Of a DNA stretch of 64,000 bases, positions 12,276 to 36,109 are shown in pieces (position 1 is the first letter of the stretch; every line of letters begins with the position of its first letter). Origin of the DNA: Bolinopsis microptera (lineage: Eukaryota; Ctenophora; Tentaculata; Lobata; Bolinopsidae); NCBI RefSeq assembly GCF_026151205.1, contig NC_087078.1, forward strand, positions 9,998,675 to 10,062,674, read 5' to 3'. The notes under the pieces were generated by a model. The model was not told the origin of the DNA, ran no database searches, and saw nothing but the letters and a program-made list of their open reading frames with translations. The translations under genes and the position numbers were made by a program.

Positions 12276-12492
12276 GATCCTGGGCCAGTCTTTAAGGCGA
12301 CAAAATAATGGAACAAACAAACTTCCTCCTTGTGTGCTCTGACGTTCAACACTTGGTAACCTGGCAACCTGGTAACCTGGTAACCTGGTTACCTGTTTAC
12401 CTGGTTACCTGGTTACCTGGGCCAGTCTTTAAGGCGACAAAATAATGGAACAAACAAACTTCCTCCTTTTGTGCTCTGACGTTCAACACTTG
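12276..12492. repeat. Duplicated exon-like segment around a GTAACCTG minisatellite
   Basis: About 75 bp containing GGCGACAAAATAATGGAACA occurs at 12278-12354 and again at 12416-12491, differing by one base. Between them lies an 8-bp array that runs as GTAACCTG and then GTTACCTG. The first copy ends CACTTG followed by GTAACC, donor-like; the second ends CACTTGCAG followed by CTGACT, acceptor-like. This is the same arrangement as at WDR13 exons C and D. Confidence 0.8.
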
Positions 12493-20801: not shown

Positions 20802-20943
20802 ACGTGTCAGCTGAAAAGGATGAAGTGTACTTCTATTCCTGGAGGAGGATCCGTAGTGAGTTTAGCAGTGAGGGCAGGACATCCTTCACCTCTACTATTA
20901 GCCTCCTCTACTTCAGACCTTATCTTCATGTTCACTATAGACA
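20802..20943 (+). CDS. WDR13: WDR13 exon B: WD40 blade
   Basis: A 142-nt exon from ATTATTTCAG to GTAAGTTG, phase 0 in and phase 1 out. It encodes T-C-Q-L-K-R-M-K-C followed by S-V-V-S-L-A-V-R and P-L-L-L-A-S-S-T-S-D-L-I-F-M-F-T-I-D. This aligns with the WDR13 segment having L..AKR, SPVTSIS and LLINACLNKLLLY. Without splicing the frame stops at TAG four codons after the donor. The last 55 nt of the exon plus the first 16 nt of the intron form the unit of the huge downstream array, so the genuine donor is followed by about 49 near-copies of itself. Confidence 0.88.
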
Positions 20944-21856
20944 GTAAGTTGTAGAGTCACCTCTACTATTAGCTTCCTCTACTTCAGACCTTATCTTCAT
21001 GTTCACTATAGACAGTAAGTTGTGGAGTCACCTCTACTATTAGCTTCCTCTACTTCAGACATTATATACATGTTCACTATAGACAGTAAGTTGTAGAGTC
21101 ACCTCTACTATTAGCTTCCTCTACTTCAGACCTTATCTTCATGTTCACTATAGACAGTAAGTTGTAGAGTCACCTCTACTATTAGCCTCCTCTACTTCAG
21201 ACCTTATCTTCATGTTCACTATAGACAGTAAGTTGTAGAGTTAGCTCTACTATTAGCTTCCTCTACTTCAGACCTTATCTTCATGTTCAATATAGACAGT
21301 AAGTTGTAGAGTTACCTCTACTATTAGCTTCCTCTACTTCAGACCTTATCTTCATGTTCAATATAGACAGTAAGTTGTAGAGTCACCTCTACTATTAGCT
21401 TCCTCTACTTCAGACCTTATCTTCATGTTCACTATAGACAGTAAGTTGTAGAGTTACCTCTACTATTAGCCTCCTCTACTTCAGACCTTATCTTCATGTT
21501 CAATATAGACAGTAAGTTGTAGAGTCACCTCTACTATTAGCTTCCTCTACTTCAGACCTTATCTTCATGTTCACTATAGACAGTAAGTTGTAGAGTCACC
21601 TCTACTATTAGCCTCATCTACTTCAGACCTTATCTTCATGTTCAATATAGACAGTAAGTTGTAGAGTCACCTCTACTATTAGCCTCATCTACTTCAGACC
21701 TTATCTTCATGTTCACTATAGACAGTAAGTTGTAGAGTCACCTCTACTATTAGCTTCCTCTACTTCAGACATTATCTTCATGTTCAGTATAGACAGTAAG
21801 TTGTAGAGTCACCTTTACTATTAGCCTCCTCTACTTCAGACCTTATCTTCATGTTC
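20889..21856. repeat. 71-bp junction array, part 1 (~13.6 units)
   Basis: Each unit is the last 55 nt of exon B (CCTCTACTATTAGCCTCC to ACTATAGACA) plus 16 intronic bases starting GTAAGTTGTAGAGTCA, so each carries a full copy of the exon B 5' splice site. Copies differ by substitutions such as CTATAG/AATATAG/GTATAG and CCTTATC/CATTATC. The array is interrupted at 21857 by a hAT element. Confidence 0.97.
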
Positions 21857-22029
21857 CATCGATGGTAAATACGTCAAAAAATCGCCTGTAAATACGCCGT
21901 ATTCAAAAATTCTAAGAAATACGTGAAATACGGCAAAATTTGGCGCTTAAATTCTTTGATGGTAAAATTTTTCAAAATACGCGCGTATCTCTATGGAAAT
22001 ACGTGATTACAGATTAGTGATATTTGCGC

Positions 22030-22900
22030 GTGCGTCGCTGGCTCAGTGGTATATACAGGGTGGGCCAAAAGTCAGTACCCATACGTTGGCCTTAATAGCC
22101 CCGCCGTGTTTTATATTTGAGAGCTGTTGCTTTGCAGATGGCATACTTTACCTACTGGTTGGAGGATTCCGTCGTCAAAATTTGAAAATTCGAATATTTT
22201 AGACCACGCCCATTCAATATTAAAACACCTATATTGTTTTCTCTGAACATGCTGAACGCCTAATTTTTTCAGAGACGGTAGATTATCAAATGTTGCATAT
22301 GATCTTCAAACATGAGGCAAAACGGATTAGAAATGACGAAGTAATCAAGCATTTTCTGTATCTCGTTAACAAAATTGACTGGGTGATTATGTGACACCGT
22401 GACACGACACCTTAATTGGGCACCCTTAACAATTCCCATAATGTTTAACGGGGTAGTTAACGGGGTCACCTTATCACGTGATTAGGTAAACCAATCACCT
22501 GATCACACGTAATGAATAAACTCGTTATGCTTCATATCTCGGTCATCTGAGAAGCTACAGTTCTAATTCTTTCAGGACAAACGTAATTCGAATGGCCAAA
22601 CACAATTCAATAACATTTAGCTTGATCCGACTATCCAAACTATCAAATAAATATGAAAATGAACCTCCATTTGAAAAAAATGAACGCGAATATTTTTCGA
22701 GTTGACAAATTCCTCGAACCAGTGGTGGTACTAAGTCATACCAGAAAGAAGTATTTAAATTGGGCACTCAGTGACTGAGCTATTAAGGCCAACGTATGGG
22801 TACTGACTTTTGGCCCACCCTGTAGCAATACTGACAGTCGTTTTGGAGACTTTACGGTGCTCGAATGAAAACGCTGCAGCGACTTGCTATTCTTATGCTG
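22030..22900 (+). mobile_element. tRNA-like SINE head split by a MITE
   Basis: Just before the nested MITE is GTCGCTGGCTCAGTGGTA, resembling a Pol III A box (TGGCTCAGTGG). Just after it are a GGTGCTCGAATG B-box-like phrase and CAGCGAC, which is complementary to GTCGCTG. Joined across the MITE this resembles a degenerate tRNA-derived SINE head. The folding is imperfect. Confidence 0.3.
22056..22822. mobile_element. 767-bp Tc1/mariner-type MITE (TA target)
   Basis: Perfect 44-bp inverted ends start CAGGGTGGGCCAAAAGTCAG and are flanked by TA on each side (22054-22055, 22823-22824). CAGGGTG ends with a TA target are typical of IS630/Tc1/mariner elements. No transposase frame is present. It is inserted into the hAT element, which in turn sits in the 71-bp array, giving three nesting levels. 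Confidence 0.9.
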
Positions 22901-23286
22901 AACCAACCAATCAGTCAGTCTGCTGCAAAGCAGAGCTTCTAAGGGTATAAAGCAGTTATGCCTCCCTCGAGGAATAGACTTTCAACCGAGACCCAGTTCC
23001 AGTGCATTTTTATCTATTACAATATTCGCAGACTAAGATCACAAGTCTCTCTTGCTTGAATTTTGAAACCGGTTACCGGATTAACACGGACTTCCCAGTG
23101 GCATACATTTAAAAAGTGACTAGGAATCCAGCCTGGAAAGAAAAAACGGCTATAATAAATTTTTAAAACGGCTATAATAATTTTTTCGGCCGGAAGACGA
23201 TTTCATTTCACCTTGCTAGTTATATTACAGAGTTATTTTTAGTTATTCATTTGTTATTCATAATTGCCAAAAGTATGGGAAAAAAT

Positions 23287-23358
23287 GATCCTATCCGAGT
23301 CTCGAACTCGCTATCTGATGATATGGAGCTAGCGTATTAACCAATTAGGCCACGATTC
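23287..23358 (-). other. tRNA-like sequence with A and B boxes
   Basis: On the minus strand GTGGCCTAATTGGTTAA gives a good A box and AGTTCGAGACTCG a good B box, with a T-run (ATTTTTT) after the 3' end. The T arm folds as CGAG-TTCGAGA-CTCG, but the acceptor and anticodon stems do not pair well. It is more likely a pseudo-tRNA or SINE promoter than a working tRNA. Confidence 0.35.
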
Positions 23359-23496
23359 CATGTACTATAATGTAATATTTATATATATATCTTCGCGCGT
23401 TACTGCAACTTAATTTGAAATACGTAATTTATCATCGGGAAATACGTATGCGTAGTATCTACGCGTAGTCTCCCCAAAACGCATTTACCATCCTTG

Positions 23497-26030
23497 TCAT
23501 GTTCAATATAGACAGTAAGTTGTAGAGTCACCTCTACTATTAGCTTCCTCTACTTCAGACCTTATCTTCATGTTCACTATAGACAGTAAGTTGTAGAGTC
23601 ACCTCTACTATTAGCCTCATCTACTTCAGACCTTATCTTCATGTTCACTATAGACAGTAAGTTGTAGAGTCACCTCTACTATTAGCTTCCTCTACTTCAG
23701 ACCTTATCTTCATGTTCACTATAGACAGTAAGTTGTAGAGTCACCTCTACTATTAGCTTCCTCTACTTCAGACCTTATCTTCATGTTCACTATAGACAGT
23801 AAGTTGTAGAGTCACCTCTACTATTAGCCTCCTCTACTTCAGACCTTATCTTCATGTTCACTATAGACAGTAAGTTGTAGAGTCACCTCTACTATTAGCT
23901 TCCTCTACTTCAGACCTTATCTTCATGTTCACTATAGACAGTAAGTTGTAGAGTCACCTCTACTATTAGCCTCCTCTACTTCAGACCTTATCTTCATGTT
24001 CACTATAGACAGTAAGTTGTAGAGTTACCTCTACTATTAGCCTCCTCTACTTCAGACCTTATCTTCATGTTCAGTATAGACAGTAAGTTGTAGAGTCACC
24101 TCTACTATTAGCCTCCTCTACTTCAGACCTTATCTTCATGTTCAATATAGACAGTAAGTTGTAGAGTCACCTCTACTATTAGCTTCCTCTACTTCAGACC
24201 TTATCTTCATGTTCACTATAGACAGTAAGTTGTAGAGTTACCTATACTATTAGCCTCCTCTACTTCAGACCTTATCTTCATGTTCACTATAGACAGTAAG
24301 TTGTAGAGTCACCTCTACTATTAGCTTCCTCTACTTCAGACATTATCTTCATGTTCAGTATAGACAGTAAGTTGTAGAGTCACCTTTACTATTAGCCTCC
24401 TCTACTTCAGACCTTATCTTCATGTTCAATATAGACAGTAAGTTGTAGAGTCACCTCTACTATTAGCTTCCTCTACTTCAGACATTATCTTCATGTTCAG
24501 TATAGACAGTAAGTTGTAGAGTCACCTCTACTATTAGCCTCATCTACTTCAGACCTTATCTTCATGTTCACTATAGACAGTAAGTTGTAGAGTCACCTCT
24601 ACTATTAGCTTCCTCTACTTCAGACCTTATCTTCATGTTCAGTATAGACAGTAAGTTGTAAAGTCACCTCTACTATTAATCTCCTCTACTTCAGACCTTA
24701 TCTTCATGTTCACTATAGACAGTAAGTTGTAGAGTCACCTCTACTATTAGCTTCCTCTACTTCAGACCTTATCTTCATGTTCACTATAGACAGTAAGTTG
24801 TAGAGTCACCTCTACTATTAGCCTCCTCTACTTCAGACATTATCTTCATGTTCAGTATAGACAGTAAGTTGTAGAGTCACCTTTACTATTAGCCTCCTCT
24901 ACTTCAGACCTTATCTTCATTCTTCATGTTCAATATAGACAGTAAGTTGTAGAGTCACCTCTACTATTAGCCTCCTCTACTTCAGACCTTATCTTCATGT
25001 TCAATATAGACAGTAAGTTGTAGATTCACCTCTACTATTAGCCTCCTCTACTTCAGACCTTATCTTCATGTTCAGTATAGACAGTAAGTTGTAGAGTTAC
25101 CTCTACTATTAGCCTCCTCTACTTCAGACCTTATCTTCATGTTCAGTATAGACAGTAAGTTGTAGAGTCACCTCTACTATTAGCCTCCTCTACTTCAGAC
25201 ATTATCTTCATGTTCACTATAGACAGTAAGTTGTAGAGTCACCTCTACTATTAGCCTCCTCTACTTCAGACCTTATCTTCATGTTCACTATAGACAGTAA
25301 GTTGTAGAGTCACCTCTACTATTAGCTTCCTCTACTTCAGACCTTATCTTCATGTTCAGTATAGACAGTAAGTTGTAGAGTCACCTCTACTATTAGCTTC
25401 CTCTACTTCAGACCTTATCTTCATGTTCACTATAGACAGTAAGTTGTAGAGTCACCTCTACTATTAGCCTCCTCTACTTCAGACCTTATCTTCATGTTCA
25501 CTATAGACAGTAAGTTGTAGAGTCACCTCTACTATTAGCTTCCTCTACTTCAGACCTTATCTTCATGTTCAGTATAGACAGTAAGTTGTAGAGTCACCTC
25601 TACTATTAGCTTCCTCTACTTCAGACCTTATCTTCATGTTCACTATAGACAGTAAGTTGTAGAGTCACCTCTACTATTAGCTTCATCTACTTCAGACCTT
25701 ATCTTCATGTTCACTATAGACAGTAAGTTGTAGATTCACCTCTACTATTAGCTTCCTCTACTTCAGACCTTATCTTCATGTTCACTATAGACAGTAAGTT
25801 GTAGAGTCACCTCTACTATTAGCTTCCTCTACTTCAGACATTATCTTCATGTTCAATATAGACAGTAAGTTGTAGAGTCACCTCTACTATTAGCCTCATC
25901 TACTTCAGACCTTATCTTCATGTTCACTATAGACAGTAAGTTGTAGAGTCACCTCTACTATTAGCTTCCTCTACTTCAGACCTTATATACATGTTCACTA
26001 TAATAGACAGTAAGTTGTAGTAGAGTTGGC
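23497..26030. repeat. 71-bp junction array, part 2 (~35.6 units)
   Basis: Continuation of the exon B junction array after the hAT insertion. Units keep the GTAAGTTG donor and the pyrimidine-rich TATTAGC-TCCTCTACTTCAG stretch. One local slip duplicates TTCTTCAT near 24920, and the final unit has ATAATAGACAG. Together with part 1 there are about 49 units. Confidence 0.97.
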
Positions 26031-27050
26031 AGACAATTAGGCACCCCTTCATTAAGTCTATTTATTTGCAATATTTGCAACTGTTATAAAATGTAAAGGG
26101 AAATGTAACAACTTTAGGCAAGATACGCTACATCTCATGGGGTCCCTCTAAGTGGACGTAGCCTTCTTACTCACAAATTCACTAAGTAACAAAAGATAAG
26201 CCACCTAACAAAATATAAGCCACCTAACAAAAGATAAGCCACCTAACAAAAGATAAGCCACCTAACAAAAGATGTCTCCTAGTGTCACTGTCAAGGTTTA
26301 AATGGGCATACAAAACAAAGCTACCAAGGTAACAAGGGTAATTAAGGCCAAGTCCCGAGCTGCTTTCTTCAGAATTTAAATATTAACGTCATAAAAGGGT
26401 TGAATGTCATTCATCACGGCAAAGTGGCTACATGACATGTCCCCCACCAGTCACCACCGTTCAATCCATAAAAAGTCATCAATTCTCCTATAATCCGAAC
26501 CGTTAATGAAACATTGATCGAAAGTGTTGCATTATTTAGTCCCTAGGCTCCGACCCCCGTTCACACCCTCGTTTTAGTCTCCGTCTTTTGAGTTAGAGAA
26601 AATGTCCACCCTTTGTGAGAAACGTATGGATATTGAAAACAATGGATATTACTGGATGAATATGCTGCTGCTTGGTTACGGACTCGTGATTTGTATTTAC
26701 AGAATGGCACATTATAACTAGGATTAACAGAATGGTTGGGCCGGGTATGAGGCCGTTACACGAGTTAAAACAAATCAATTATGGAACTTTTCAATATATT
26801 ATGACCTGCTATGTTATCTGTTCAATAACGAAGTTATGTTTCCTGTTCTATGACCAAGTTACATAACCTGCTCATGCTATGTTATCTCTATAGTTTATAA
26901 CCTGTTAAAAGAACCAATTATATTTCCTGTTCTAACACAATAATACCAAATTTTGTTTCCTGATATAAGACCAAATTCTACAAATTCTATTATCAAATTC
27001 AATAACCGAATCCCATAAGCAGCTACTAGTTCTAAAACCCAGTTCTCAAC
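26031..27050 (+). other. WDR13 intron B-C, middle part
   Basis: Non-coding. It holds a 19-bp tandem repeat (ACCTAACAAAAGATAAGCC, about four copies, 26184-26272) and, from 26800, a loose repetition of TGTTATCTGTTC / TTTCCTGTTCTA phrases. No gene was seen. Confidence 0.6.
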
Positions 27051-27678
27051 CCTTATCAGAGGACGTGTTGCTACCCAGCTACCTAGCTACCTAGTTACCT
27101 AGTTACCTAGTTACCCAGCTACCTAGTTACCTAGTTACCTAGTTACCTAGTTACCCAGCTACCTAGTTACCTAGTTACCTAGTTACCTAGTTACCTAGTT
27201 ACTTAGTTACCTAGTTACCTAGTTACTTAGTTACCTAGTTACCCAGTTACCTAGTTACCTTGTTACCTTGTTACCTAGCTACCTAGTTACCTAGTTACTT
27301 AGTTACCTAGTTACCTAGTTACCTAGTTACCTAGTTACCTAGTTACCTAGTTACCTAGTTACCTAGTTACCTAGTTACCTAGTTACCTAGTTACCTAGTT
27401 ACCTAGTTACCTAGTTACTTAGTTACTTAGTTACCTAGTTACCTAGTTACCTAGTTACCTAGTTACCTAGTTACTTAGTTACCTAGTTACTTAGTTACCT
27501 AGTTACCTAGTTACCTAGTTACCTAGTTACCAAGTTACCTAGCTACCTAGTTACCTAGTTACCTAGTTACCTAGTTACCTTGTTACCTAGCTACCTAGTT
27601 ACCTAGTTAGCTTGTTACCTAGCTACCTAGTTACCTAGTTACCTAGTTACCTAGTTACCTAACCCTCCCCCTTATCAG
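27051..27678. repeat. 8-bp minisatellite bracketed by copies of the exon C acceptor
   Basis: About 70 units of CTAGTTAC (variants CCAGCTAC, CTAGCTAC, CTTGTTAC). The array is preceded at 27051 by CCTTATCAG/AGGACGTGTTGCTAC, the same intron-exon junction that starts exon C at 27679. The first units run GTTGCTAC, CCAGCTAC, CTAGCTAC, CTAGTTAC, as if the array grew from the last eight exonic bases of the duplicated junction. Confidence 0.95.
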
Positions 27679-27770
27679 AGGACGTGTTGCTACTGGTTAG
27701 GAAATGCTCTGCTAAACTAAACGGTCTGCCGATAAGAAGTGTCTTCTGTCCTATCGCTACTGCTCAGAGG
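27679..27770 (+). CDS. WDR13: WDR13 exon C: WD40 blade
   Basis: A 92-nt exon from CCCCTTATCAG to GTACGTGA, phase 1 in and phase 0 out. With the carried A from exon B it reads K-D-V-L-L-L-V-R-K-C-S-A-K-L-N-G-L-P-I-R followed by S-V-F-C-P-I-A-T-A-Q-R. The phrase P-I-R-S-V-F-C-P corresponds to the very conserved PVRSIFCP of vertebrate WDR13 and is the strongest single identifier of the gene. An alternative acceptor (GGTTAG at 27700) would put a stop in frame, so the chosen one is supported by phase. Confidence 0.9.
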
Positions 27771-28379
27771 GTACGTGATTTTATAGATTTTACTTATGTA
27801 CCCCGTTACTTTTTACTTATTACTCTTTTAAAACTTACCACATTCATTACTGCTGCTAAGGTTTTAGTCTAAGGAAATATGTGTTATTTGTCAAATCTGC
27901 AAAAGCACTGTTGTTTCCATAAGACATCACCGTCATAAATCTTGCAAATCTAGACAATTAAATCTTTATGGACATGGTCTAAGTGAAGTCCAGCAACTAG
28001 ATGCATCATCAGCAGTAACTAGGTAACTAGGCAACTAGGTAACTAGATGCATCATAAGGTAACTAGATGCATCATAAGGCTTGAAGAATTTCTGAAGCTG
28101 TAAAAGAAACAGTCGCGTGTCTTGACTATATCACCTTCTTATCTAGTAGTGAATACAGTGTTTCGTTTCGTTTTGTACTGTCTAGATTGTCAATATTCCA
28201 GGGAGCGTTTACAGTGTCAGGTTGTGTTGACGGGTCTGTAACTAGTAACCTGGTAACCTGGTAAACTGGTAAGCTGATAACTTAGTAACCTGGTAACCTG
28301 GTAACCTGGTAACCATGGTAACCATGGTAACCTAGTAACCTAGTAACTAGCAGTGTAACTATGGTAACTAATATTCCAG
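27771..28379 (+). repeat. WDR13 intron C-D with duplicated exon D acceptor
   Basis: Contains a GGTAACTAG/ATGCATCAT short repeat at 28015-28080. At 28192-28239 is a near-exact copy (one difference) of the exon D acceptor plus its first 38 nt (AATATTCCAG/GGAGCGTTTA to GACGGGTCTGT). A GTAACCTG-type minisatellite (28240-28368) separates this copy from the real junction at 28370-28417. Confidence 0.92.
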
Positions 28380-28474
28380 GGAGCGTTTACAGTATCAGGT
28401 TGTGTTGACGGGTCTGTTCTTGTGTTTGATATGGAGAAAGGGAAAGCAGTTAACAAGCTACAAGGACATTCTTG
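28380..28474 (+). CDS. WDR13: WDR13 exon D: WD40 blade
   Basis: A 95-nt exon from AATATTCCAG to GTAAGCTC, phase 0 in and phase 2 out. It encodes G-A-F-T-V-S-G-C-V-D-G-S-V-L-V-F-D followed by M-E-K-G-K-A-V-N-K-L-Q-G-H-S. The pattern VSG..DGSVLVFD is a WD40 strand b-c turn, and AVNKLQGHS is identical to vertebrate WDR13 at this point. The first 38 nt exist a second time 178 bp upstream behind an identical acceptor. Use of that copy would read through the minisatellite to a stop. Confidence 0.92.
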
Positions 28475-28710
28475 GTAAGCTCATTTTGTCATTATATGTT
28501 TGTTTGTTTGTTTGTTTATAGAACCCGTCCCCAATCTCGTATCGGAAAATGACTAAACTCAGGTCTGAGTGTGAATACGGGTGGTACCTGCAAGAGTGTT
28601 CATTAAGCATTTAGAGTTCTGTAAAACTGTAGTTACAATTGTGCTAGAGTATTTTTAGAATTTACGATTGGTATCAGATATATATCCCTACATGCTTCCA
28701 AAATTTGTAA

Positions 28711-28877
28711 AGCCGTAGTACATACATATCACATTACACCGGAGCCTACACAGTGCAATCTCCTCCAGTCGATCTGCGCCGCGTATGTTTATATAAGCGC
28801 GCGGCGCAGACTGGAGCGGAGGAAACCACACTCTGCAAGTTCGATCCAGTGCAATGCTACATGTACGTACTACGGCT
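28711..28877. mobile_element. 167-bp foldback (MITE-like)
   Basis: Outer ends AGCCGTAGTACATAC and GTACGTACTACGGCT are inverted copies. An inner pair, CTGCGCCGCG and CGCGGCGCAG, lies around a short loop (28777-28812). Non-coding. Confidence 0.7.
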
Positions 28878-29386
28878 TCATCTCCAACTTTTTGCACAAT
28901 GTACTGGAATGTTTTGAAGGAAAAGAAAGAACAAAAAAATGTGATATATATAAATAAAATTTAATCAGCGATTTAATGTTAGCCTTAGGAGGGTAACTTT
29001 AATTCCCTGGTTTCTAAAATCAGCTTTAAAAAAAAATAATAAAGTATGTAACGTCGATACCAAACCGATAATTGAGCGATAATAACTGAGTAGTTGATTC
29101 CTGGGTTGCGGAGTCATTCAGATGTTCCAGTTTTCGAATGTGGTTCTTGTTCAGTTCTTGACCAGAAGTGTCTTACTATGAAGTAAGTCAGACAAGCAAA
29201 CTCTTCCTTAAATGCTGATATAAGTCGTCTCAATCCCAGAAATTATGAAATTGAATGATGACCCAGTGTAAAAGTGCGGAAATCGGCCGAAAATAACAAA
29301 GACTAAAAACAGTTAAAAAGAGACAGGATTCAAACACAAAGAAAATTAATAACTTAGAGCATAAGGAATATCTCCAAACGGAGTTT

Positions 29387-30040
29387 TCTGAGAGGGTGAG
29401 AGGTTCTTTAATTAGAGCTAATGATTAAATGAGACCCACTAAAGGTACTAAATTAACCGGACTGCTAGCAAGGAATCGAGAGTGGGAATAAAAATAAAAG
29501 CGGAATAAATTTTAAGATAATGAAACAGAAACTGAAAGCTAAAATATATACCGTTCTAGAATGCCTCCGCAAACTATTGCTCCTTTGTAATGCACGTGTT
29601 ACTGTAGGTAAGTGTAGTAAAAAGATAAAAATAATAAAGCTATAAAAATGAACGGAGCGGTGAAAATCTGAGAGGGTGAGACTGAGAGGTTCTTTAATTA
29701 GAGCTAATGATTAAATGAGACCCACTAAAGGTACTAAATTAACCGGACTGCTAGCAAGGAATCGAGAGTGGGAATAAAAATAAAAGCGGAATAAATTTTA
29801 AGATAATGAAACAGAAACTGAAAGCTAAAATATATACCGTTCTAGAATGCCTCCGCAAACTATTGCTCCTTTGTAATGCACGTGTTACTGTAGGTAAGTG
29901 TAGTAAAAAGATAAAAATAATAAAGCTATAAAAATGAACGGAGCGGTGAAAATCTGAGAGGGTGAGACTGAGAGGTTCTTTAATTAGAACTAATGATTAA
30001 ATGAGACCCACTAAAGGTACTAAATTAACCGGACTGCTAT
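29387..30040. repeat. 286-bp tandem duplication, ~2.3 copies
   Basis: The phrase AGGTTCTTTAATTAGA starts at 29401, 29687 and 29973, an exact 286-bp period. The second unit is nearly identical to the first; the third stops after GGACTGCTA. Confidence 0.95.
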
Positions 30041-31339
30041 ATTTCATTATATGTGCATCAATTATTATATAATGATTATTCCAAAACAGTGAAAGATATT
30101 TAATTTATTTGAGAAGTTTCTTGATTTCTTGATTTCTTGATTTCTTGCTTTCTTGATTTCTTGATTTCTTGGAGTAGATAGTGTTAATAGTGGAATGATC
30201 AATGGTCATTACGATTTCTTAAATTCAGAATTGACCACCCTAGCTACGACAGTTGGTTCCCTAGCAACCGAACTTAATAATATAATATCTCTACTATAAT
30301 TCAGAGAATTATTTCTGTATGTCTGTCTGTACGACAGCCCACGTGCAAATTAGATGAAAAATAGGAATTTGAATAGTAACCATAGTAACGAGGATTGTTA
30401 CACGCACGTGCACGTGCAATGATTGTTTAACGTCATTTTGATCGGTTTTGTTGATTTTAGTACGGGCAACATTTTAATCGGCTGCATCTTTGGTTGTGAC
30501 GGATATTTTTTGACGCGATTTAAACTTACTAACAAAAAATACTATTAGCTTCCTCCCTATGACCACGGGTTTTCTAGTTACTTATAAAGCTTTCTCTGCT
30601 TTTACCTTGAAGAAACTCAAAACGATCTGTAAAATCATTAAGTCTTCTAGGCGCCCTCAAGTATTCTCCTCTGTTATCTTTTGAATGCTTATTCTCTTAG
30701 TTTTATAATTTCATTGATACTACCTTAAGATGCATCTTAGATGTAAGGTCATTAATCAGTAAACTAAAAATTTACTTTCATGCCTTCCTCTGCTCTCTCT
30801 AATTTTTAAATGATAAGTTATTACAGACTTATTTGATAGAGAGAAGAGGAGATCTTGTATAATTTTCATACGAAGCTCTTACGCTCTTGATTCCAAAGAT
30901 CCTGATCCTCTACGAATACCGTCGTTTTATTTTTTAGATATCTTAGAGAAATTTTTTGTTTTTTCATAGGAAAATGATTGGTGTTTTAAAACTAAGAGTC
31001 ATTAATTTTTGTTAGTTTTTATGAAAGTTAAATAGCTGGTTTACCGTGATGATCTTGATACTGAACCCTCTCCCGCTGTTAGAGGGTGTGGTCACTAACT
31101 CCGCTCTAATTTACATCTTTATCTTGGACTTAGAGCCACGTTTATTGGTAGATTTTATCGGTAGATTTTATCTTATCTCTCTTTTATTCATCATATTTGG
31201 TTTAGATTAACGATCTTGATACCCTAAATCCTCTACAAATACCGCTGTCACGGTTCATTCCTCTGTTGGGTGTGGTCTCACTAAACCTCCCTCCAATCTG
31301 CATGTGTTTATAACGTTCAGCACTACAGTTACAACAGCA

Positions 31340-31476
31340 GCAGTAGTTGTAGAACTAGAGCTGTCACGTGACCAGCAGTAGTTGTAGAACTAGAGCTGTC
31401 ACGTGACCAGCAGTAGTTGTAGAACTAGAGCTGTCACGTGACCAGCAGTAGTTGTAGAACTAGAGCTGTCACGTGA
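31340..31476. repeat. 35-bp repeat x4, each with a CACGTG E-box
   Basis: Four near-exact copies of a 35-bp unit contain AGCAGTAGTTGTAGAACTAG and then AGCTGTCACGTGACC. The palindrome GTCACGTGAC is a good bHLH-zip (USF/MYC/TFE-type) site. The array lies about 0.4 kb upstream of the nested gene, so it could act as a promoter element; that role is inferred only from position. Confidence 0.9.
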
Positions 31477-31850
31477 CTCACAACAGAGAGTAGACAACAA
31501 TACTTCTCCACTCTGACGAATCTCTGGTCTGTTTACTTATCCTCGTTAACTAATTACAGAGCTCTATTTGCAGAGAATAACCCCCTCCTTCGCTGCTCGT
31601 TTATATCAGTATACTCACTGTGCGTAACCAGGATGTGGAGGAGGGTCACGTGACACACTACTTACCCTAACTCTGCCAGCTACGAATACGAGGAATCCTC
31701 AGTTTCAGCGTCTATTCCTGGGTATTTCAGCTTACTCCTCGGTTAATATTTCTAGTGATTTAACATTGCCGTATATATACACAACCCTCTTGCCTGATAG
31801 CTTAATTGAGCAACAATCAAGGAGAAAGATCACGTGGTATATCACGTGGT

Positions 31851-33590
31851 ATGTCAGGTGGTATGTCAGGTGACGAGGAGCCTGCTAGGTGCACATCGCG
31901 TGACCATGATGACATTTCTAATTTGCTGTCTGTGCAGACGCTCAGTTATAGATCTTTTATTTCTAGTTTACAGAGTTTGCTTGATTTTGATTTTGATAAT
32001 GGAGATAACAGCGGTGAGGGAGGGGGCATGAGGAGCAGTATTGCTAAGCAGATGGAGGGAATGTTTGAACCGGCGGAAGTGGTCCCGGAGGTGATTCCAG
32101 ATGTCCGGAAGGTTTATCGTCCTGAGAAGCCTAAATTGTTGGAGATGGCGGCCATGCACCATAGCATGGAGGGAAAAGGAACTCTTTCCAGCAGTCCCAA
32201 GATGACCAGACGAGTCATGTCCGAGATGAATGTATGTACTGGAGATCAGAGCAATAGCTATAGAATTAAAAACACCCCCGTCAGTGCTGAGAAAGCTGTC
32301 TCTGCTTCCAACATAGTTGCGTCCCCACCATCTCCATCCCCTTCCTCCTCTTCTGGGACAACATCTCTACCTGCAACTTCAGCTCCAGATGTCAGTGGTA
32401 GTAATACGGAGCAGCAGTCTCCACCACTGAGTCCTACAGCACCTCTAGTAACGTTCCACAAAACGCAACCTTCTGTCAGTGTCCCTGACATTGTGGAGCC
32501 ACCAAGCAACACTATCCTTGCTGCTGCCTCCTCTGTGTTTGTCCCTGTTTTACCACCAGCTCTAGGATCAGAAGTAGCTGCTACCTTCACCTCCCCCGCT
32601 CCTGCTATCTGTGTTTCTCCCCCACCAATAGTGTCCTCGCCCACTACTCTACCAACAACCCTCATCTCCCCACCTACCAGACCTGCACCCCCGTCTCCTG
32701 TTCACCATGTCTCCTTCTCGGAACCTTCCTCCTCTCCTCCTCCCTTACCTCCGGGTAACCTATCTAGAGGATCAAGTCCTATCTCCTCCCCTCAACAACT
32801 GGAGGACTATTCTCAGAGTCAGGACGAGGCCATATACCAGAAATTAGATCTGTCCCTAGACAAGGACACAGGAGAGGAGCGAGCTCTTTCCTACACAATA
32901 CCAAGAAGGCTGACCGAGTGTAACAGCAACATGCCTGAAACACCAGTAAAATTTAGTCCAGACCCTGAAATCAGGAAGACCAGCACCACCAGCTATGTAC
33001 CACTGAGTGCCATGGCAGATGCAGCAAACCATGGGCCCGAGGAGACCGTCTACGAGGTTTACAGAGACCCAACCATCGCCCAATGCACACCTCGCGGTAA
33101 ACCTCATAGTCACGTAAATGGGAACGGAACCAGCCATGTGGTCGCCGAACATCAACCAAAGGCTGCTCGAAGCCCAGCTACAGGAGTCTCTAATGGACCT
33201 CCGACCTGGTGTAGTTGCGCCTGCTGCTCCCACGCGGACCACACGGGTATGATATGTTGTGCTAGCAGTCCTGAGTTGGTGTTCCTGTTCGATAACGGTG
33301 AGGAGTGTGTGACCAACACCCTGCTCTTCAACCAGGTTGTTCTCAACAAGTTGGGCTTAAAGTACGGAGACTGGGTGGGTAAGAAGTGGTTGATGAGGAA
33401 GGAGAACGTGGATCATGGGTGTAATAGAGCGTACAGACATTTGGCGTATAACGCGTTCGTGAATCTGGTGTCGTCCCAAATAAAGAAGCAGTGGTCTCAC
33501 AAGGTCCTTCCTTCTTGTGTGATAAACGCCATCAGGAAGGTTTATCCTTCTAGAGATGGAGCGTATTCTGGAATTGTCCGATCCACTTGA
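31851..33590 (+). CDS. Protein with a P2X7-type C-terminal (ballast-like) cysteine domain, no channel part
   Basis: An intronless-looking frame of 579 residues from ATG 31851 (a second in-frame ATG is 12 bases on); a stop lies just upstream at 31803. The first ~450 residues are low complexity, rich in Ser, Pro and Thr, probably disordered, with many SP/TP sites. From about residue 450 the sequence becomes W-C-S-C-A-C-C, then M-I-C-C, E-E-C, N-R-A-Y-R-H-L-A-Y, and finally V-L-P-S-C-V-I-N-A-I-R-K-V-Y-P and D-G-A-Y-S-G. That order of cysteines and the NRxYRHxAY and PSCVxxxIRKxYPxxxGxYSG blocks match the cytoplasmic zinc-binding C-terminal domain of vertebrate P2X7 receptors. No transmembrane segment or ATP-binding ectodomain is present. 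The domain is known on its own or in other contexts in invertebrates. An upstream exon (acceptor GCCTGATAG at 31799) cannot be excluded. The gene lies in the last WDR13 intron on the same strand. Confidence 0.85.
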   Translation: MSGGMSGDEEPARCTSRDHDDISNLLSVQTLSYRSFISSLQSLLDFDFDNGDNSGEGGGMRSSIAKQMEGMFEPAEVVPEVIPDVRKVYRPEKPKLLEMAAMHHSMEGKGTLSSSPKMTRRVMSEMNVCTGDQSNSYRIKNTPVSAEKAVSASNIVASPPSPSPSSSSGTTSLPATSAPDVSGSNTEQQSPPLSPTAPLVTFHKTQPSVSVPDIVEPPSNTILAAASSVFVPVLPPALGSEVAATFTSPAPAICVSPPPIVSSPTTLPTTLISPPTRPAPPSPVHHVSFSEPSSSPPPLPPGNLSRGSSPISSPQQLEDYSQSQDEAIYQKLDLSLDKDTGEERALSYTIPRRLTECNSNMPETPVKFSPDPEIRKTSTTSYVPLSAMADAANHGPEETVYEVYRDPTIAQCTPRGKPHSHVNGNGTSHVVAEHQPKAARSPATGVSNGPPTWCSCACCSHADHTGMICCASSPELVFLFDNGEECVTNTLLFNQVVLNKLGLKYGDWVGKKWLMRKENVDHGCNRAYRHLAYNAFVNLVSSQIKKQWSHKVLPSCVINAIRKVYPSRDGAYSGIVRST

Positions 33591-34280
33591 GATGTGTTTT
33601 ACTTCAGGTACGTTTAAATGTGCTCTGCTTTATTTGGGTCTTACTTATATATTTTTTTTATTAAATACTTTTCAAATTTTACAGAGTACAGCAATAGATG
33701 AATATAAAATAGAATCGTTCAAAATATCGCCCCCATCTGTAAAATATGATGGGCACCCAAACACGGTAAACACATAGTGAACTATGTCCGCAGTAACTTG
33801 GACCCATTACATCGAATCAATTAATGTTATATTCATTGTTCAGTTACTTATTCGTGGGAGCGGCTTTTTGATAACGGAATTTAGTTTTATCATATTATGT
33901 TTATGGCATTTCACCCCTTATAGGTTCGAGTTTGTGTCAGGTGTCATGCGTACAGTTAGGCTCTAAGTTATGAAAATAACTTGAATTTAAAATCTACTGA
34001 GAAAAATGTTAACCTGAAACCCATAATACGTACATGTTTGCTTAATCTGTACCTTGCACCAAAAGTGTTGAACTGATTTTGTAGTTTTGTAGTTGTAACT
34101 GAAACTGTGAAAGGCGTCGAACGAAATATTAGTGCTACTCGAGTACCTGAAGTAGGGTTGATACTACTGCTCAAGTGTTACAATTGTTAAAACTTAATGT
34201 CTACAACAGCAAGTCTAAGTATAAGAAATGTTGTAAGTTTGATAATATTGAGTTAGGATAATGAGTTTGGAAATTTAAAT
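33591..34280 (+). other. 3' flank of the nested gene
   Basis: Contains short frames of 60-73 codons without recognisable features. No clean AATAAA was recognised shortly after the stop. It ends where the 43-bp array begins. Confidence 0.4.
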
Positions 34281-36018
34281 AACTCCTCTTATTTTCAGTC
34301 CGGTGTACGGCGTATGTCTGAGTAACTCCTCTTATTTTCAGTCCGGTGTACGGCGTATGTCTGAGTAACTCCTCTTATTTTCAGTCCGGTGTACGGCGTA
34401 TGTCTGAGTAACTCCTCTTATTTTCAGTCCGGTGTACGGCGTATGTCTGAGTAACTCCTCTTATTTTCAGTCCGGTGTACGGTGTATGTCTGAGTAACTC
34501 CTCTTATTTTCAGTCCGGTGTACGGCGTATGTCTGAGTAACTCCTCTTATTTTCAGTCCGGTGTACGGCGTATGTCTGAGTAACTCCTCTTATTTTCAGT
34601 CCGGTGTACGGCGTATGTCTGAGTAACTCCTCTTATTTTCAGTCCGGTGTACGGCGTATGTCTGAGTAACTCCTCTTATTTTCAGTCCGGTGTACGGCGT
34701 ATGTCTGAGTAACTCCTCTTATTTTTAGTCCGGTGTACGGCGTATGTCTGAGTAACTCCTCTTATTTTCAGTCCGGTGTACGGCGTATGTCTGAGTAACT
34801 CCTCTTATTTTCAGTCCGGCGTACGGCGTATGTCTGAGTAACTCCTCTTATTTTCAGTCCGGTGTACGGCGTATGTCTGAGTAACTCCTCTTATTTTCAG
34901 TCCGGCGTACGGCGTATGTCTGAGTAACTCCTCTTATTTTCAGTCCGGTGTACGGCGTATGTCTGAGTAACTCCTCTTATTTTCAGTCCGGTGTACGGCG
35001 TATGTCTGAGTAACTCCTCTTATTTTCAGTCCGGTGTACGGCGTATGTCTGAGTAACTCCTCTTATTTTCAGTCCGGTGTACGGCGTATGTCTGAGTAAC
35101 TCCTCTTATTTTTAGTCCGGTGTACGGCGTATGTCTGAGTAACTCCTCTTATTTTCAGTCCGGTGTACGGCGTATGTCTGAGTAACTCCTCTTATTTTCA
35201 GTCCGGCGTACGGCGTATGTCTGAGTAACTCCTCTTATTTTCAGTCCGGTGTACGGCGTATGTCTGAGTAACTCCTCTTATTTTCAGTCCGGTGTACGGC
35301 GTATGTCTGAGTAACTCCTCTTATTTTCAGTCCGGTGTACGGCGTATGTCTGAGTAACTCCTCTTATTTTCAGTCCGGCGTACGGCGTATGTCTGAGTAA
35401 CTCCTCTTATTTTCAGTCCGGTGTACGGCGTATGTCTGAGTAACTCCTCTTATTTTCAGTCCGGTGTACGGCGTATGTCTGAGTAACTCCTCTTATTTTC
35501 AGTCCGGTGTACGGCGTATGTCTGAGTAACTCCTCTTATTTTCAGTCCGGTGTACGGCGTATGTCTGAGTAACTCCTCTTATTTTCAGTCCGGCGTACGG
35601 CGTATGTCTGAGTAACTCCTCTTATTTTCAGTCCGGTGTACGGCGTATGTCTGAGTAACTCCTCTTATTTTCAGTCCGGTGTACGGCGTATGTCTGAGTA
35701 ACTCCTCTTATTTTCAGTCCGGTGTACGGCGTATGTCTGAGTAACTCCTCTTATTTTCAGTCCGGTGTACGGCGTATGTCTGAGTAACTCCTCTTATTTT
35801 CAGTCCGGTGTACGGCGTATGTCTGAGTAACTCCTCTTATTTTCAGTCCGGTGTACGGCGTATGTCTGAGTAACTCCTCTTATTTTCAGTCCGGTGTACG
35901 GCGTATGTCTGAGTAACTCCTCTTATTTTCAGTCCGGTGTACGGCGTATGTCTGAGTAACTCCTCTTATTTTCAGTCCGGTGTACAGCGTATGTCTGAGT
36001 AACTCCTCTTATTTTCAG
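34281..36018. repeat. 43-bp array carrying 41 copies of the exon E 3' splice site
   Basis: Each unit is 18 intronic bases (AACTCCTCTTATTTTCAG) plus the first 25 exonic bases (starting TCCGGTGTACGGCGTATGTC). The first copy of CAG/TCCGG puts the exon position at 34299 and the genuine exon starts at 36019. The distance is 1720 bp, exactly 40 periods, so 41 acceptors are present with no net indel. Variation is almost limited to TGTACGG/CGTACGG, rare TTTTTAG and one ACAGC. Confidence 0.98.
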
Positions 36019-36109
36019 TCCGGTGTACGGCGTATGTCTGAGTTACGACGAGAGCTTGCTGGTCAGTTCTGACTCTTCCGGTACTGTCATTGTATGGCAA
36101 AAACGATAA
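36019..36109 (+). CDS. WDR13: WDR13 exon E: last WD40 blade and stop
   Basis: Terminal coding exon after TTATTTTCAG, phase 2 in. With the carried TG it reads C-P-V-Y-G-V-C-L-S-Y-D-E-S-L-L-V-S-S-D-S and then S-G-T-V-I-V-W-Q-K-R-stop. D-E-S-L-L-x-S-S-D-x-S-G-x-V-I-V-W closes the beta-propeller and is the conserved WDR13 C-terminus. Splicing to any of the 40 upstream acceptor copies would join nine correct residues to intron-derived codons and reach TAA in the second unit. Correct expression therefore needs selection of the final acceptor. Confidence 0.92.

Follow-up and report, generated by a model that had tools for sequence, protein, structure and literature searches.

Why would the splice junctions of a single gene be copied dozens of times? 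This question is raised by a WD40 gene in a 64,000-nucleotide (nt) stretch of the genome of the ctenophore Bolinopsis microptera (NC_087078.1, positions 9,998,675 to 10,062,674 of the forward strand; hereafter the window, in which all plain coordinates are counted), where four exons, B to E, each have a tandem array that is built from, or bordered by, the sequence across one of their exon-intron boundaries. All four arrays were located where an earlier note on this DNA had placed them. As far as can be judged from sequence, the arrays of exons B and E fit every testable feature of "mirages," i.e., the junction-spanning minisatellites of amphioxus, and splice junctions do serve as the unit or edge of distinct arrays, as that note observed; the same pattern is repeated in many other genes of this animal. 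We consider it probable (roughly 60%) that these are mirage-type minisatellites, in which ordinary short tandem duplications persist at splice junctions because splicing hides the surplus copies.

Junction arrays of the WD40 gene

Exon B (20802–20943, + strand) ends at a GTAAGT donor starting at 20944, and the sequence across this donor is repeated on the + strand in 71-bp units that form a first part of array B at 20886–21856 and a second part at 23497–26020 (13.7 and 35.4 copies, respectively, according to Tandem Repeats Finder [TRF]). Together, the two parts hold 49 exon B donors, and the twelve letters round the splice point, GACAGTAAGTTG, are intact in all of them. The earlier figures of about 49 copies and a 71-bp unit were thus reproduced, but the accompanying split into 55 exonic and 16 intronic nt was not, our own reading being ~58 exonic and 13 intronic nt. 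Among 46 aligned full copies we counted 25 distinct units, with 14 of the 71 columns variable. A DNA transposon, which we take to be hAT-like, interrupts the array at 21857–23496 (no strand assigned) and has an 8-bp target duplication (TCATGTTC) and terminal inverted repeats that match at 15 of 20 positions; since this target duplication lies within array B, the array is older than the insertion. A second inverted-repeat element, read by eye, is nested within the transposon at ~22055–22828.

At the other end of the gene, the acceptor of exon E (coding part 36019–36109, + strand, through the stop codon TAA) is repeated in array E (34280–36043, + strand), which occupies the end of the last intron and consists of 41 copies of a 43-bp unit. 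The copy number and unit length agree with the earlier note; the unit itself comprises 19 intronic and 24 exonic nt (one T being ambiguous) rather than 18 and 25. Two of the 41 acceptors read TAG rather than CAG, 4 of the 43 columns vary, and the unit ends share 1 nt of microhomology. That 41 to 49 copies occur at 95–98% identity is beyond chance.

The two intervening exons have a different arrangement, in which an 8-bp array separates two copies of an acceptor. The acceptor of exon C (27679–27770, + strand) lies inside the second copy (27669–27693) of a 25-bp direct repeat, the upstream copy of which is at 27050–27074 (+ strand); between them is a 590-bp array of TACCTAGT (27072–27661, 73.8 copies, assigned to the - strand, on which it reads GTAACTAG), which sits at the 3' end of the same intron that opens with array B. 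Likewise, the acceptor of exon D (28380–28474, + strand) is contained in a 48-bp direct repeat (28192–28239, + strand, and 28370–28417, with 1 mismatch) that flanks 12.6 copies of GTAACCTG at 28245–28347 (+ strand). Both acceptors are therefore doubled around an 8-bp array, of GTAACC type at exon D, as the earlier note had described.

Splicing of the B, C, D, and E exon segments in silico yields an open frame of 139 residues that ends at the final TAA, and a nearly identical sequence of 140 residues, transcribed by eye, has a Pfam match to WD40 (E = 8.6e-11). The earlier note labels this gene WDR13. When compared with the genome, the protein gave 10 matches, of which 7 are its own locus (exons plus array copies) and 3 are distant matches elsewhere (best E = 2e-4), so that this search revealed no second copy of the WD40 gene. 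Use of the alternative splice sites tested at B and E would break the frame or alter the product. Donor copies 2 to 6 of array B, i.e., those that were translated, each lead to a stop at codon 51 (numbered from exon B), and the 40 upstream acceptors of array E give proteins of 124, 133, or 142 characters including the stop, versus 140. The upstream copy at exon D could supply a 36-nt in-frame mini-exon (28202–28237) if the GTAACT that follows were used as a donor. The open frame is consistent with a predicted choice of the exon-proximal splice site at both B and E. A check of column variation in these two arrays gave no support for constraint on the splice motifs within them, and, because so few columns vary, the intact signals are no sign of such constraint.

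Arrays of this kind were already known, contrary to the statement in the earlier note that no named system resembles them. The original paper on amphioxus mirages is reportedly that of Canestro et al. in 2002. In extracts of later work, mirages are tandem minisatellite-like repeats across exon-intron boundaries in Adh3 and the globin genes BflGb6 and BflGb9 (PMC3087553), to which TnC and PGBD5 have been added (PMC3902484); they affect both 5' and 3' boundaries, and reverse transcription-polymerase chain reaction suggested that regular splicing is intact (PMC3087553). The same extracts give units of 150–160 bp for the globin genes, with 6 or 3 copies in two haplotypes of BflGb6, and units of 10–72 bp together with somatic instability for Adh3 (PMC3087553). 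Arrays B and E resemble these mirages in having tandem units of minisatellite size across the boundary, in lengths that overlap those of Adh3, and in affecting both donors and acceptors, as does one exon on another contig that is arrayed on both sides (L084/L066; see below). They differ in phylum and in reaching ~50 copies rather than the 3 and 6 of BflGb6, and the ctenophore genome also has a composite type, in which GTAAC-type arrays come between the copies of a junction. Because 8-bp arrays of this sort separate the junction copies at exons C and D, those two cases are variants rather than plain mirages. The kind has thus already been named; the novel aspects are its occurrence in the ctenophore phylum, how abundant it is, arrays of nearly 50 copies, and the composite with GTAAC-type repeats. 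We met no description of junction arrays in ctenophores in the literature searched, which is weak evidence of absence. As mirages now occur in two animal phyla that split at the base of the animal tree, they are no quirk of amphioxus.

There are also other precedents. According to its title, a 1995 paper by Turri et al. is said to describe a minisatellite with multiple splice donors in human IFI6 (6-16). That title is cited in PMC3618361 and PMC4526556, and an extract of the latter states that two downstream repeat units serve as donors. This minisatellite likewise furnishes repeated donor sites, but it belongs to a single gene and its extra copies make isoforms, whereas the distal copies tested here break the frame. 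In the Rogers model, introns are reportedly gained via tandem duplication of AGGT proto-splice sites, a process similar to ours in duplicating splice-signal segments in tandem but different in that existing introns grow here. Intron gain has also been proposed, in an extract, as an outcome of mirages (PMC3087553). Human variable internal tandem repeats at exon-intron boundaries, which may form new introns, concern paralogues in segmental duplications, and the part of that paper available to us describes no arrays of dozens of junction copies (PMC2812944). Earthworm metallothionein genes combine intronic minisatellites with exon duplications that are left unexplained in the extract available (PMC12783039).

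Recurrence elsewhere in the genome

We surveyed the genome with tandem splice motifs, and array-to-junction assignments outside the window were made by eye. Three donor motifs AGGTRAGT in tandem gave 2751 matches, of which the first 100 hold 5 arrays, 4 of them at junctions (C1:36.5 kb, a paralogue at 761 kb, 401 kb, and 2508 kb) and one, at 1998 kb, not junctional. In 3 of the 4 junction arrays, the donor motif match lies solely on the strand opposite the gene. The list of single AGGTRAGT matches added repeated donors at 428, 434 (two copies), 475, and 885 kb. For CAGGTAAGT in tandem (451 matches), the first 100 hold 9 arrays, 7 of which are junctional (L058, L059, L060, L062, L064, L065, and L066/L084), with Pfam matches for the exons of L060, L062, and L065 and an exonic share of merely a few letters at L058 and L062; L061 may be a further junction array of this set, and L063 is not one. 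TTTYCAGG in tandem gave 486 matches, and among the first 100 we counted 12 arrays. Of these, 8 are away from junctions and 2 are acceptor arrays whose exons are open but matched no Pfam family (L076 and L077); L068, which lies at an exon edge, and L079 were counted in neither class. Across the motif sets, L045, L051, L055, L056/57, L063/67, L069–L074, L075, and L078 were set aside as having no junction or no exon seen.

Short proteins from 23 array-adjacent exons were compared with Pfam, and 13 matched at an E value of 0.05 or better, namely, DDRGK (5.4e-18), Cep192 domain 5 (1.1e-15), homeodomain (2.2e-13), dynein AAA_9 (2.6e-12), myosin head (5.3e-11), Kazal_2 (1.3e-9), MoeA_N (3.3e-7), WD40 of MABP1/WDR62 (1.7e-5), copine (1.5e-4), TAF2 (2.3e-4), gelsolin (0.0011), and sushi twice (0.0025 and 0.023). 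The copine, MABP1/WDR62, TAF2, gelsolin, MoeA, and both sushi matches are under the curated cut-off of their family. In 11 of the 13, the junction lies within the repeated unit, and the MoeA (L075) and gelsolin (L082) exons lie near or beside an array. The remaining 10 proteins matched no Pfam family; one of them, from the exon of L048, is presumably dynein. This exon, at C1:885 kb (L048 ~240–580), also has an internal duplication of >100 bp upstream of its repeated donor.

The junction units of other genes measure 20–79 bp, and of those read, 6 of 23 are multiples of three, about the third given by chance. Wherever a junction array was read, the extra copies were found on the intron side and the exon itself was whole. 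One exon, at C10:17.04 Mb (L084 560–720 plus L066), is preceded by 3 acceptor copies and followed by 42 donor copies.

Ahead of the TAF2-like exon, a 37-bp unit running from GTAAGT to TTTCAG is present in ten copies by TRF (L062 492–861); nine borders read TTTCAG/GTAAGT, so that such copies combine an acceptor with a donor and could act as recursive splice points. At L033 (3249–5076), 61 copies of a 30-bp unit with abundant CTAAC and pyrimidines form an array that stops 19 bp upstream of the acceptor of a CCT exon, and from this composition and position it may repeat something like a branch point plus pyrimidine tract. Long arrays with units of 58 and 37 bp (L088 and L090) carry the donor-like signals CTCAG/GTCAGA and, on the - strand, CCAG/GTAAGC.

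The frequency of such arrays was also assessed in a sample of myosin-head and CCT genes (loci L018–L037), comprising 88 of 108 listed exon matches and 82 acceptors plus 82 donors with a usable splice call. Our test asked for duplication of 24 letters, 12 on each side of the junction, so that shorter overlaps escape it; one example is a doubled 26-bp segment at a different donor of the myosin gene in L037. It found one clear array in 164 junctions (L037, a myosin donor with a 40-bp unit and 22 copies) and one doubtful case, as compared with 24-letter duplicates at 1 of 264 positions in exon interiors and 19 of 437 intron positions. The L037 units are perfectly identical, and their ends share a 5-nt CCTTC microhomology. 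The doubtful case, a duplicated acceptor at L022, was dropped on reading because the junction call itself is doubtful, and a 48-bp duplication at L018 was rejected, as it starts just past the first donor base and leaves the junction unrepeated. At L019, a second acceptor copy was sought before a long 8-bp array and was not found.

The composite arrangement of exons C and D recurs as well. In the window, a 77-bp direct repeat (copies at 12279–12355 and 12416–12492, + strand) flanks a GGTAACC array at 12356–12416, matching the similar layout that the earlier note had pointed out at a possible small gene at 12.3 kb. GTAAC-type 8-bp arrays are frequent genome-wide, with 1172 matches to GTAACCTGGTAACCTGGTAACC versus 0 for the reversed control. 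We fetched ten such loci (L001–L010), of which L005 had no called 8-bp array under our script's rule (likewise, L012 had no called 6-bp array). Direct repeats of at least 26 bp flank or interleave the arrays in 5 of the ten (L001, the second array of L003, L008, L009, and L010), and none of such length accompanies the called arrays of L002, L003 (the first), L004, L006, and L007. Similarly, 3 of the 6 called GTAAC-type arrays in the window have long flanking repeats (those at 12356, 27094, and 28285) and 3 do not (5495, 8461, and 27993). At L001 and neighbouring loci, the flank that is repeated consists of the end of the DDRGK-domain exon with its donor, and the composite unit occurs 19 times, mostly at 135-bp spacing; at C1:475 kb (L050), a GTAAC-type array is surrounded by a shorter donor duplication. 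The composite form is therefore recurrent, and it includes exons C and D as well as the 12.3-kb case. Arrays of the 6-bp repeat GTAACC were rejected as examples of the same phenomenon, long flanking duplications being found in 0 of 6 called arrays.

Origin of the arrays

Under the favored reading, error-prone repair of a break, or slippage, would first produce a tandem duplicate of a ~20- to 80-bp segment across a splice site, and the duplicate would then grow through slippage or unequal exchange. Small tandem duplications at the termini of DNA breaks are an established mutation class in cultured cells, according to an extract of PMC8355091. Such short tandem copies are a likely first step here, to which expansion and placement at junctions would have to be added. 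Little harm would follow, since the spliceosome would stay with whichever copy adjoins the unique exon (the first in a series of donors, the last in a series of acceptors), and all other copies, exonic letters included, would become intron and could multiply freely. For the composite variant, the simplest view is that the two duplicated ends came to enclose filler or a slipped repeat, which expanded later into the GTAAC-type 8-bp array. We favor tolerance because, in the myosin/CCT sample, duplicates are almost absent from the interiors of exons and abundant in introns, with an intermediate rate at junctions. The intronic position of the surplus copies and the lack of bias toward multiples of three are likewise as expected if duplications start widely and only those hidden by splicing survive. 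Tolerance appears to account for most of what we observed, and the presence of four arrays in one gene is incompletely explained by it.

Some results do weigh against tolerance as a full explanation, and they bear on the suggestion in the earlier note that a mechanism preferentially duplicates junctions. They come mainly from arrays collected in a motif-neutral way, in four groups. The first 100 of 200 matches to TGARTGGA, the reversed donor motif, hold 6 arrays, of which 5 were read and 1 is junctional (L053/L054, a dynein acceptor array with few exonic letters), the others being an in-frame repeat inside a coding exon (L052) and 3 arrays with no exon seen. The first 100 of 1060 matches to AGTGRAGT hold 3 arrays, and of the 2 read, one is at the Kazal donor (L080, few exonic letters) and the other abuts the gelsolin acceptor with no exonic letters (L082). 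Eleven stretches of 8.8 kb, chosen beforehand at position 6.0 Mb of contigs C1–C11, hold 13 arrays that pass a uniform cut (period ≥17, copy number ≥2.4, score ≥140); 11 are without a junction and 2 are junctional, both in one Cep192-like gene (a 43-bp donor array of 47 copies, at an exon without a Pfam match, and a 69-bp acceptor array of 9.4 copies). The same cut, applied to the myosin/CCT sample, gave 1 junctional array in 6, versus 0.5 expected. Pooled, 5 of 26 arrays hold a junction, which is more than tolerance by itself would lead one to expect: random placement of a 45-bp unit among an assumed 80,000, 140,000, or 200,000 introns gives 1.05, 1.45, or 1.86 (P = 0.004, 0.017, or 0.041, respectively). 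The donor motif in tandem is, moreover, far more frequent than its reverse (2751 versus 200; single motifs, 19,244 versus 15,618), and arrays cluster within genes: the WD40 gene has four and the Cep192-like gene has two, a sushi-like region (C1:401–434 kb) has three, and the exon at C10:17.04 Mb has arrays on both sides.

These observations would fit a true hotspot, in which breaks linked to transcription or splicing (R-loops or nicks) seed duplications and germline-active genes collect several arrays. Extended to the whole lineage, germline breaks of this kind would seed exon-end duplications, GTAAC-type repeats would come to lie between the duplicated ends in some cases, and introns, possibly numbering in the hundreds to thousands, would grow from such arrays, with several per gene in the genes affected. 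We keep both the local and the lineage-wide form as tentative alternatives, each clearly less probable than tolerance, because tolerance predicts neither an excess over introns nor clustering. The excess itself shrinks when the Cep192-like pair is counted once (P = 0.022, 0.060, or 0.119) and is suggestive only, because the groups were pooled after inspection and exons were sought by eye. Motif counts were discarded as proof of a hotspot, since AGTGRAGT gives 1060 matches and its reverse gives 1517, and since counts rise with array length; the arrays among the first 100 listed matches of the five motifs (5, 6, 9, 12, and 3) are also too few for firm array numbers. In the myosin/CCT sample, moreover, the junction rate is lower than the intron rate. 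A three- to five-fold preference for junctions, together with clustering within genes, may exist, and to this extent a junction-preferring mechanism is conceivable.

For exons C and D, one might instead envisage that a GTAAC-type repeat entered with a long target-site duplication, and that, within exons, only those insertions that duplicated a splice site survived. The flanking direct repeats of 25–77 bp in the window and the similar repeats at L001, L003 (second array), L008, L009, and L010 would agree with such an event, as would the 19 composite units at the DDRGK-domain exon and the shorter donor duplication at L050. However, usual target duplications are shorter and less variable than these repeats. 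No mobile element was seen between the copies at C, D, or 12.3 kb, where the repeats measure 25, 48, and 77 bp, and many arrays of this type (three in the window, five in the fetched loci, and all 6 called GTAACC arrays) lack such repeats. We therefore regard insertion as unlikely and prefer filler between duplicated ends. Multiplication of junction segments by long-read errors or haplotype joins is considerably less likely again: copy numbers of long arrays are uncertain in any assembly and the L037 units are identical, but array B contains 25 distinct units and a transposon with a clean target duplication, and independent arrays with differing units occur in many genes. Selection for the arrays, whether because they keep spare splice sites available, slow splicing for regulatory purposes, or give rise to alternative proteins, seems the least probable explanation. 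Core signals are kept in all 49 donors and 41 acceptors, and the upstream D copy may provide an in-frame exon; with so few variable columns, intact signals are uninformative, and the alternative B and E sites tested break the protein or alter its end.

Regardless of how they arose, a genome rich in junction arrays offers a natural test of how the spliceosome chooses among dozens of identical sites, and such arrays also bear on the growth and origin of introns by tandem duplication and on the breakage of junctions relative to other DNA. Iso-Seq and long genomic reads exist for B. microptera, according to an extract of PMC10232365.

Other features of the WD40 gene

The WD40 gene contains other arrays that have no contact with the B–E junctions, namely, a 19-bp array at 26187, a 286-bp array at 29397, an 8-bp array at 30117, and a 35-bp array at 31338. 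In its last intron, an intronless open frame of 594 codons (31806–33590, + strand) ends in a P2RX7_C domain (Pfam E = 3.4e-18) and may be a nested gene or a decayed copy. GC content in the window varies from 0.31 to 0.48 across 2-kb steps. The intronic array at 29397–30039 resembles, by its other-strand consensus, a five-copy array on another chromosome (L101 3060–4630), and the similarity of these 286- to 301-bp repeats suggests a dispersed repeat family.

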